In this document: one piece after another, positions 15,423-61,149 of the stretch
Position numbering within the stretch: position 1 is the stretch's first letter
How the letters are laid out: each line of letters opens with the position of its first letter
Source of the DNA: Pseudomonadota bacterium
GTDB lineage: Bacteria > Desulfobacterota > Syntrophia > Syntrophales > UBA8958
NCBI GenBank assembly: GCA_030057915.1
Contig: JASGUC010000005.1
Coordinates: 1-64,000, forward strand
Reading direction: 5' to 3'
Length of the DNA stretch: 64,000 nucleotides
Made by a program: the position numbers and the translations under genes
Notes under the pieces: generated by a model
The model's database searches: none
What the model was told of the DNA's origin: nothing
The model's input: only the letters and a program-made list of their open reading frames with translations

Positions 15423-15839
15423 AATGCTCGAAGCAACCTTTCGATGCGGCCATCGGCGCCCCCAGTGGCTAACATAGTTCGTCCGGCATGTCCAACAGAG
15501 ATGCGTCCGGCCCAGGGCAAATTCATTCTCCTCGCGGTAAGCCGAAAATCGCCGATTGTCCATGTTTTGCAGCCGTATGGAATCAAGCGCTTGCGGAAAG
15601 AACGGACCGCGCCGGTATAAACCGGCAAGGAGCAAGGGATGAAAGAGCCCCACATCTCCGCACGGAGGCACCTGAACGCGCCGGACCGTGAAGATGAAGA
15701 CGCGGGGCCTCCCCGTCTGTTTCGGCGCCACTGTCGCCGCCGTGGATTAAGCCTTGACAAGATCGTGAGAGGGCAGGCAAAGGAACGTCATGGCGTCCTC
15801 CCATGGGGAGGGGGCGATAGGACACAACGGGAGGAACGA
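15423..15839. other. Repeat-rich intergenic region between maf and the candidate selenoprotein
   Basis: No credible gene. The segment 15507-15606 resembles, in inverse orientation, 22301-22385: both carry a CATGTTTTGCA/TGCAAAACATG block and GGAATCAAGCGC/GCGCTTGATTCC. A perfect 6-bp hairpin GCCGGT-ATAA-ACCGGC lies near 15612-15627. TTGACA occurs near 15754 without a convincing -10 box. Confidence 0.55.
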
Positions 15840-16229
15840 ATGATCGCTCGCGCCGGGATAAAGCTCCTCGCGCTGGCGGCGACGCTGATGTGGCTGGGCG
15901 CGTCGCCGCCGCCGGCCTCGGCGGCGAACCGGACGGCGCAGTTTCACGTTACGGGTTGCCACACCTGAGGAGATCGGGCCAGGATGGGGTCCATCCTGAG
16001 GAATGCCCCCGGGGTGATCGCTTTTGTCATCCCCCAGGACGGCGTGGTGGTGGTGGCCTTCGACGACGGCCGGACATCGACGGCGGACATCGCCCGGGCG
16101 CTGGAAAAGGGGAGATTTCGACTCCGGGGGGCGCCGTCGTATGCGCCAACGGCCGTTCTTCCGCCGTCCCCGGCGTCAACGCCGCCGCCTCCCCCGGCCG
16201 GACCGCCCCTTTACGAAACCGGACACTGA
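15840..16229 (+). CDS. Candidate selenoprotein: exported HMA-like (MerP-like) small protein with CHTU motif, in-frame UGA as selenocysteine
   Basis: Read through one in-frame TGA (15966-15968), the gene encodes 129 residues with selenocysteine at position 43. The start has a good ribosome binding site (GGGAGG) and a signal peptide (LLALAATLMWLGASPPPASA). The mature part reads as a heavy-metal-associated beta-alpha-beta-beta-alpha domain: strand TAQFHVTG, loop CHTU, helix to RNAPGV, strands VIAFVIPQ and GVVVVAFDDGRTS, helix TADIARALEKG. Cys40 and Sec43 form a CxxU pair where HMA domains carry CxxC. The tail is proline-rich (PPSPASTPPPPPAGPP). An excellent bSECIS-like hairpin follows the UGA, with the same geometry as in fdhA. 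Without readthrough only a 42-residue peptide is made. Function (metal or redox) is inferred. Confidence 0.78.
15980..15998 (+). promoter_or_regulatory. Bacterial SECIS-like hairpin after the UGA
   Basis: CAGGATG (15980-15986) pairs perfectly with CATCCTG (15992-15998) around loop GGGTC. One more G-C pair could close the loop to GGT. The stem begins 11 nt after the UGA and the loop 18 nt after it, with G at the loop start, as in known bacterial SECIS elements and as in fdhA of this window. Confidence 0.75.
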
Positions 16230-16491: not shown

Positions 16492-16592
16492 CGGTAAATT
16501 TGTTCTATCTCTAAGTGGCTGAAAACAGGACGTGCCTCAGTTTTGGTAGATCATTCAAGATCAACTACTCACATTGAGAACAAATTTACCCT
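16492..16592. repeat. Family C MITE-like element, copy 1
   Basis: About 101 bp bounded by perfect 14-bp terminal inverted repeats (GGTAAATTTGTTCT and AGAACAAATTTACC). The inner sequence is nearly the same as at 46722-46823, including GGACGTGCCTCAGTTTT. It has no coding capacity. It lies upstream of hisC. Confidence 0.85.
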
Positions 16593-46543: not shown

Positions 46544-46903
46544 GGTCCTGTTCCCCCTTTCCCTGAAGTGGCGACACTCTATCAGGATTTATTGAAATAG
46601 GCAATTGCCAGGGCCAATTGGCTCTGATCTCTATAAGCCGAACATAGCGGTTTTTCCATGTTTGCCGTCACTTGAAAACGAGCGCTTGCGGGAAGAACTA
46701 ATTTGCTCGATGCCAACTCCACGGTAAATTTGTTCTATCTCTAAGTGGCTAAAAACAGGACGTGCCTCAGTTTTAGTAGCTTATTCAAAATCAACTGCTT
46801 AGATTGAGAACAAATTTACCCTGAGGCCAACTCCCTTGTTGTTGACAGTGATGGAAAACTGAGTTAAAAACGGCGCAAAAATTCCGCCGGTGAGAGACGA
46901 GTC
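46544..46903. other. Divergent intergenic region with repeats
   Basis: About 360 bp between the ketopantoate reductase-like gene and the biotin carboxylase gene. It holds the family C element (46722-46823), preceded by a stretch (about 46638-46705) that shares CGAGCGCTTGCGGGAAGAA-like sequence with 15507-15606. The carboxylase start has only a weak ribosome binding site. Confidence 0.55.
46722..46823. repeat. Family C MITE-like element, copy 2
   Basis: 102 bp with perfect 14-bp terminal inverted repeats, GGTAAATTTGTTCT and AGAACAAATTTACC. About nine of ten bases match the copy at 16492-16592. Non-coding. Confidence 0.87.
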
Positions 46904-58452: not shown

Positions 58453-61149
58453 ATGAAGGATGCGATCTTTTCCCTGAATGGGAAAGAAACCGTTTACCAG
58501 CCCGGACAAACGGTTCTGGAAGCGGCAAGGGCGGCCGGGGTGAACATTCCCACCCTCTGTTACCTCAAGGATACGACCCCCACCGGCGCCTGCCGGATAT
58601 GCCTGGTGGAGATCGCCGGCGCCCGGACTTTGATGGCCGCCTGTTCCACCCCGGTGGCGGCGGGCATGGAGGTGTTTACGGAAACGGACCGGGTCCACAA
58701 TGCCCGGAGGCTCAATGTGGAACTGCTTCTGTCCAGCGGCCGCCATGATTGTATGATCTGCGAGAGGAATGGGGATTGTCGCCTTCAGGATCTGGCGTAT
58801 TATTACGGAATCAAGGAGATGCGCTTTCCCCAGGATCAGGATTTCTACCCCACCGAAGAGGAAAACCCCTTCATAGTCCGTGACTTCACCCGTTGCATCC
58901 GTTGCGGCCGCTGCATTCAGGCCTGCAACGAACTGGTGGTCAACCGGGCCATAAGTTACGGCTATCGCGGCAAGGACAGCAAGGTCGTCACCGGCGGCGA
59001 CGGCCCCTACCTGGGCAGCGAGTGCGTCTTCTGCGGCCAGTGCGTGGAGGTCTGCCCCGTCGGGGCCCTTACGGAGAAGAAGGCCCGGGGCAAGGCGCGG
59101 GCCTGGGAGACCCAAAAGATCCGCACCACCTGTCCCTATTGCGGAGTCGGCTGTCAGCAGTGGCTCCATGTGAAAGACGGCCGGATAACCAAGGTCACGG
59201 CGGTGGAGGATGGGGAGCCGAACATGGGGCGACTCTGCGTCAAGGGCCGTTTCGGCTATGACTTCATCTATTCGGAGGACCGTCTCAAGACGCCGCTGAT
59301 AAGGGAAAACGGGAGCTTCCGGGAGGCTTCCTGGGACGAGGCCCTGGATCTGGTGGCGGGGAAATTCAAGGAAATCATCGCCAAGGAAGGTCCCGACGCC
59401 ATCGCCGGCGTCAGTTGCGCCAGGAGCATCAATGAAGATTCCTATCAGATGCAGAAACTGTTCCGCGCGGTGATCGGCACGAACAACATCGATCACTGCG
59501 CCCGCACCTGACACGCCCCGACGGTCGCCGGTCTGGCGACCTCTTTCGGCTCCGGGGCGATGACGAACTCCTTCCGCGATTTCGCCAAGGCCAAGATGAT
59601 CCTGGTGATCGGTTCCAACATGACGGAGGCCCATCCGGTGGCGGCTTCGCTGCTGAAGATGGCGGTGATCGGAGGCGCCGAGATGATCGTGGTGGATCCC
59701 CGGCGAACGCCCCTTGTGGACCTGGCCAACCTGCATGTCCAGATCAAGGTGGGTTCGGACGTGGCCTTTCTCAACGGGGTGATGCATGTCCTGATCGCCG
59801 AGGACATCTACGACAAGAAATATGTCGAATCCTGCACCGTGGGGTTCGAGGAACTGAAGCAGAAGGTTCTGGAATATACGCCGGAGCGGGCCGCGGCCAT
59901 CAGCGGGGTTGACGCCGACACGATCCGGACGGTGGCGCGCCGTCTCGCCGCCAACCGTCCCGCCATGCTTATGTACACCCTGGGGATCACCGAACATACA
60001 TGTGGCGTTGACAACGTCATGTCCTGTGCGAACCTCCAGATGCTCCTGGGCAACGTCGGCTTCGAATGCGGGGGCGTCAACCCCCTGCGGGGACAGAACA
60101 ACGTCCAGGGGGCCTGCGACATGGGGGCCCTGCCCAATGTCTTCCCGGGCTATCAGCGGGTGGACAATCCCCAGGCGCGGGAGAAATTCGCCGCCGCCTG
60201 GAAGGTGGAAAGGCTTCCGGAAAAACCGGGATTGATGATTCCCCAGATGATCGACGGCCTTCTGGATGGCAAGGTAAAGGCCTTTTACGTCTTCGGGGAG
60301 AACCTCGCCAACACGGAGCCGGATATACGGCACGTGGAGCGCTGCCTTGGCGCTGCGGAATTCCTGGTATGTCAGGACATCTTCCCCACGGAGACCACCC
60401 GGTTCGCCCATGTCGTGCTGCCGGCGGCGGCCTGGAGCGAGAACGACGGGACGTTCACCAGCAGCGAGCGCCGGGTCAACCGGGTCCGCACCGCCAGCGC
60501 CCCCCCGGGGGAGGCCAAGCCCAACTGGTGGATCTTCAAGGAGATCGCCCGGAGAATGGGTCATGTCTGGGAATCCGACAGCGCCCGGGAACTCTGGGAC
60601 AACGAGATCTCACAACTGGCGCCCTCCCTGGCGGGGATCAAGTATTTCCGCCTGGAAGGCAACGGACTCCAATGGCCGGCCCCGAGCCTGGAACACGAGG
60701 GGACCCCCTACCTCCACAAGGACGGCTGTTTTACCTGCGGGCTGGGGGTTTTGAAGGCGATCGACTGGAGGCCGCCGGCGGAGACGCCCGACGAGGAATA
60801 TCCCCTGGTCCTGAGCACGGGCCGCCGCCTCTACCATTACCACACCCGGACCCAAACCGGACGTTCCGAAGGCCTCAACGTGCTGCTCGGCGAGGAAACG
60901 GCCGATATCTCCGAGACGGATGCGGATAGATACGGGATTGCGGACGGGGAGACGATTGCGGTGAGGTCCCGGCGCGGCAGGGTGGCCGTGAAGGCCAGGG
61001 TCACTCCTCAGGTGCCGCCGGGGATGGTCTGGATGGCCTTCCATTTCCGGGAGGGATGCGCCAACTGGCTCACGAATCCCGTTTACGATCCCATTACCCT
61101 CACGGCGGAATACAAGGCCTGCGCCGTGGCGGTGGAAAAGATCGCCTGA
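58453..61149 (+). CDS. fdhA: Formate dehydrogenase alpha subunit, selenocysteine-containing (in-frame UGA)
   Basis: 898 residues from the ATG at 58453 (GAGGAGG upstream), reading TGA at 59509-59511 as selenocysteine 353. Domain order: NuoG-like [2Fe-2S] (Cys36, 47, 50, 64), His/Cys cluster HDCMICERNGDC, two [4Fe-4S] sites (CIRCGRCIQAC and CVFCGQCVEVC), the cofactor-domain cluster CPYCGVGC, then the molybdopterin part. The active site reads DHCARTUHAPTVAGL, the FDH signature. CGGVNPLRGQNNVQGACDMG and the C-terminal HTRTQTGR complete the family. It oxidises formate to CO2 (or the reverse) with Mo or W. The [2Fe-2S] front end is that of cytoplasmic NAD- or ferredoxin-linked FDH. The mod genes lie nearby. 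Confidence 0.96.
59523..59541 (+). promoter_or_regulatory. Bacterial SECIS hairpin of fdhA
   Basis: GGTCGCC pairs perfectly with GGCGACC around loop GGTCT. The stem begins 11 nt and the loop 18 nt after the UGA. The loop GGTCT is also that of E. coli fdhF, where SelB binds. Confidence 0.9.

Follow-up and report, generated by a model that had tools for sequence, protein, structure and literature searches.

A candidate exported selenoprotein with a CxxU motif and an HMA/MerP-like fold in Syntrophales

The window analysed here, a stretch of 64,000 nucleotides from a Syntrophales genome, carries a short gene located between a divergent maf and a convergent manC (Table 1). The gene stands alone between these neighbours in about 20 compared Syntrophales loci, and the neighbourhood comparison revealed a conserved housekeeping synteny without any partner indicating function. 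The reading frame begins with an ATG at 15840 and ends with a TGA stop at 16227-16229. As first proposed for this DNA, it is interrupted by a single TGA after which the same frame stays open, so that the readthrough product of 129 residues contains the motif C40-H-T-U43. The ribosome binding site described as good in the original prediction was found ahead of the ATG, and the proposed signal peptide was recognized by eye as a hydrophobic N-terminus ending in ASA. Most homologues similarly have a hydrophobic N-terminus with an AxA-like end and, judging from inspection of the sequences, the product is probably exported. Among the aligned homologues, the proline-rich tail is confined to the genus of the window.

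Table 1. Features of the selenoprotein locus, with positions in the window.
Feature	Position	Strand	Basis
Ribosome binding site GGGAGG	15829..15834	+	Sequence
Selenoprotein gene, UGA 43 read as Sec, 129 residues plus stop (predicted)	15840..16229	+	Homologue comparison
Signal-peptide-like N-terminus, residues 1-28, ASA before presumed cut	15840..15923	+	Read by eye from sequence
HMA/MerP-like domain, residues 29-104	15924..16151	+	AlphaFold2 model, fold match, profile match
Cys40 codon of CxxU motif	15957..15959	+	Present without exception in the 28 aligned homologues and the 74 loci retrieved by DNA pattern (the pattern itself demanded TGY at this position)
TGA codon for Sec43	15966..15968	+	Sequence and homologues
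Bacterial SECIS hairpin, 7 pairs, loop GGGUC	15980..15998	+	Covariation, codon constraint, covariance model
Proline-rich C-terminal tail	16152..16226	+	Alignment of homologues

A protein search detected a homologue in 104 of 155 genomes placed in Syntrophales by their record titles. By our own count of the search rows, the matching frames contained exactly one in-frame TGA in 109 of 116 cases and none in 7 of 116. When 100 relatives were searched with the protein, 65 gave a match, and one TGA was present in nearly all of the stronger matches. Judging by record titles, carriers belong to Syntrophus, Smithella and other Syntrophales, to some Desulfobacterales and to one Desulfohalobiaceae genome. 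The position of the TGA was read directly in the 29 loci found by protein similarity whose motif could be placed (L009, without the motif, was left out) and in 74 loci retrieved by a DNA pattern run over a collection of 84,980 species; the two sets overlap, and the second favours copies that have a canonical SECIS with a TGY ahead. All these loci read G-C-x-x-U, as did every Sec copy of the window's family read in detail, and GCxxU was invariant across the 28 aligned homologues. One DNA-pattern match, from Obscuribacterales (L060), was discarded as a chance match. In the genus of the window, a homologous frame without the PGCxxU region (L222, G003) may be the remnant of a decayed gene or a product of misassembly.

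The frame downstream of the hairpin was under purifying selection, with a median dN/dS of 0.37 over 879 pairs, and of 0.44 between the window and its closest relative, rather than the value near 1 of an unconserved frame. Two genomes (G092 and G499) each hold a PGCxxU Sec copy (L016 and L221) together with a Cys paralogue (L214 and L219) in which the motif is SGCADC (CADC). Homologues with Sec or Cys at residue 43, as anticipated, therefore both exist, and a Cys homologue at the Sec position is one of the features expected of a bacterial selenoprotein. Such Sec/Cys pairs allow the contribution of Sec to be assessed in a natural setting.

We then considered the hairpin CAGGATG-GGGTC-CATCCTG, located 11 nt past the TGA. 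Its folding energy was ordinary when calculated on the window sequence alone (z about -0.7), a value that would also suit a TGA acting as a true stop, or arising from a sequencing error or in a decayed gene. The evidence from a single genome was therefore weak, and covariation was used instead. In the 29 protein-found sequences, 97.5% of the hairpin cells were paired, whereas slid versions of the hairpin reached a paired fraction of only 28-50%. Changes on both sides were observed in four of the seven pairs, and the covariation score was reached by none of 500 shuffles. Codon choice just after the UGA was skewed too: Arg at U+5 was AGG or AGA (AGR) in 29/29 cases versus 54/125 at other positions of these genes, and for Ile at U+6 the codon was ATA in 19/19 versus 28/223 (Fisher p 1e-9 and 9e-16, respectively), indicating an RNA constraint on this region. 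A covariance model built on the 29 sequences, the window copy among them, picked out this site alone when run over the window, at 57 bits (E 4e-12), the runner-up having E 0.28. The same model gave 47 bits to L124, a protein-similarity find outside the model, and about 19 bits to the two Cys paralogues; folding of one of them (L214) revealed no stable hairpin. An Rfam search at a permissive threshold returned chance matches only. Covariation and codon constraint thus bear out the predicted hairpin with a G in its loop at the right distance from the TGA, as expected for a bacterial selenoprotein.

The machinery for selenocysteine insertion is present, since SelA, SelB, SelD and tRNA-Sec were all found in the window's genome. 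SelD (L224, G000:C26:15599-16528) is probably itself a selenoprotein because of its one in-frame TGA. The use of selenocysteine, first deduced from fdhA, was confirmed: an FdhA-like frame, a second selenoprotein in the window, contains a TGA in frame at 59509 (+), in DHCARTUHAPTV. Co-occurrence with SelB was uninformative as a test inside Syntrophales because nearly all genomes of the order have SelB (94/100 over the cut-off). Outside the order, tRNA-Sec was found in all 12 genomes tried, with homologues containing a TGA and homologues lacking it alike.

From this comparison across genomes, the gene almost certainly encodes a selenoprotein; the invariant GCxxU, the covariation of the hairpin and the covariance model make the comparative evidence decisive. 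The TGA is very unlikely to be a real stop, to stem from a sequencing error or to mark gene decay, given that about 100 genomes share it together with a covarying SECIS hairpin, that purifying selection acts downstream of it and that Cys paralogues exist. The candidate exported HMA-like selenoprotein with a CxxU motif was thus supported, and none of the three observations that could have overturned it (no homologue with Sec or Cys at residue 43, an unconserved downstream frame, a genome without selAB/selC) was made.

In order to place the domain, the protein was modelled with AlphaFold2, Sec being entered as Cys. The model comprises three strands (30-38, 59-66, 69-75) and two helices (43-55, 81-90), with a core pLDDT above 90, predicting the ferredoxin-like HMA fold (PF00403); residue 43 is the first of helix 1. 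VIA-align gave Z 10-12 to CopZ, MerP and P-type ATPase HMA domains, and PDB profile matches were obtained with CopA (1p6t, E 2e-12) and MerP (1afi, E 4e-7). The MerP model TIGR02052 was matched by 27 of the 28 homologues (best E 9e-13), the window protein itself scoring 15.3 bits, below the curated cut-off of 92.55. PF00403 matches were found in 9 of the 28 homologues at E up to 0.05 (best E 2e-8), and a Pfam search with the window protein yielded no HMA (PF00403) match and nothing useful. NF041115 and NF045683 were weakly matched by 13/28 and 2/28 homologues (best E 2.5e-5 and 8e-4), with scores, where printed, far under the respective cut-offs of 95 and 375 bits, and neither matched the window protein at E up to 1. 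No NCBIfam or Pfam model fits the family at its cut-off, and PADLOC gave no match. The fold and profile matches agree with the HMA domain first read from the sequence. The GMxCxxC metal-binding loop of HMA domains was absent, however, all aligned members having GCxxU in its place: the loop reads G-C-x-x-U-G-x-x-x-R here versus G-M-x-C-x-x-C-x-x-R, the M and T of MTCxxC being missing. The original prediction had placed the TGA exactly where HMA domains have their CxxC. The CxxU motif itself was confirmed, but the exact coincidence was not, since, measured between the common flanking Gly and Arg-Ile, CxxU lies two residues nearer the N-terminus.

Among known proteins, periplasmic mercury-binding MerP (TIGR02052; PDB 1afi, 1osd) is likewise exported and has an HMA fold of about 72 residues, but the family described here has the shifted CxxU in place of MTCxxC. 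The copper chaperones CopZ and Atx1 and the HMA domains of P-type ATPases share the fold (Z 10-12) and carry MxCxxC with two Cys, whereas the window protein has CxxU and an export signal. Sec and an HMA-like domain are also combined in NF041115, a UxxU metal-binding (seleno)protein, and in NF045683, a MerT/CopZ fusion-like selenoprotein; the former differs by its UxxU and the latter by its MerT fusion from the exported single domain with CxxU found here. The suspicion that HMA-type selenoproteins had already been listed proved correct: a Sec-containing 'Mercuric transport protein MerP', with 2 sequences, appears in the 2008 Global Ocean Sampling survey (PMC2398784, Table 2). The likeness, Sec in a MerP-like protein, is one of description, as the table gives no Sec motif.

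In Sec relatives at a greater distance, the motif reads PGCAU, GGU or PGVVU. Four MerP-like Sec proteins with PGVVU or GGU (L128, L133, L205, L124) contain no Cys in the domain. Three Desulfobacterales forms (L070, L091, L094) extend far beyond the Sec domain at the C-terminus, and part of the extension is rhodanese-like; rhodanese families and the tail region of an M36 peptidase were among the NCBIfam matches of L070.

With somewhat more confidence than doubt, we infer that the gene product is a small exported selenoprotein binding soft metals by selenolate and thiolate outside the cytoplasm. SelB and tRNA-Sec would read UGA codon 43 as Sec, guided by the downstream hairpin. After export, Cys40 and Sec43 would be exposed on the HMA-fold domain, in the loop predicted at the start of helix 1, which is the metal-binding site of MerP, CopZ and Atx1. 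Selenolate and thiolate might then hold a soft metal ion, e.g. Hg(II), Cu(I) or Cd(II), and the protein may act as a buffer or scavenger outside any mer operon. The kinship with HMA/MerP proteins in TIGR02052, PDB profiles and fold match argues for such a role, and other Sec-containing families tied to metal transport have been predicted (PMC13188914, a 2026 review). Against it stand the absence of the canonical loop, the housekeeping neighbours and the lack of a MerT partner: no mer operon is present at the locus, and MerT (PF02411) was not found in the window's genome (G000) and was found in 2/100 relatives. In addition, L124, L128 and L205 keep Sec without a domain Cys, so that the two-ligand CxxU site is not general, and the rhodanese-like part of the three Desulfobacterales forms hints at sulfur or redox chemistry.

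The latter forms also bear on the main rival, a periplasmic redox selenoprotein in which a Cys40-Sec43 selenylsulfide reduces disulfides, peroxides or sulfur compounds and the HMA fold serves as a scaffold. Among selenoproteins, CxxU is frequent as a redox motif (PMC2398784, PMC13188914), and the modelled location of Sec43 at the start of helix 1 would suit this chemistry. Yet both the fold and the profile matches belong to metal carriers and not to thioredoxin-like proteins, no reductase partner gene recurs nearby and the sister families have no resolving Cys. We regard redox activity as a serious possibility, although soft-metal binding seems to us to rank first. The single-Sec sister families and the rhodanese-like fusion in L070 would also fit another use of an exposed selenol, for example selenium/sulfur carriage or single-Sec capture of methylmercury or other electrophiles. 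This is improbable for the window's own family, where the invariance of Cys40 suggests a paired site.

If metal is bound, Sec would act as the ligand of a metal within a carrier domain, which is less common for this residue than redox catalysis. The gene is present in about two thirds of the examined Syntrophales, and ordinary gene calling would cut it at the Sec codon; the hosts are anaerobes of sulfidic, metal-rich habitats. Tentatively, Desulfobacterota might possess a large class of exported selenoproteins with the HMA fold (CxxU, CxU and single-Sec forms), most of them unannotated, in which a selenolate binds soft metals outside the cytoplasm, independently of mer operons.

Two further elements were noticed in the window, at 16493-16590 and 46723-46820. 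Both are 98 bp long with perfect 14-bp inverted ends (GGTAAATTTGTTCT), like a short MITE, and the end sequence gave 7 matches (up to 2 mismatches) versus 0.15 expected.
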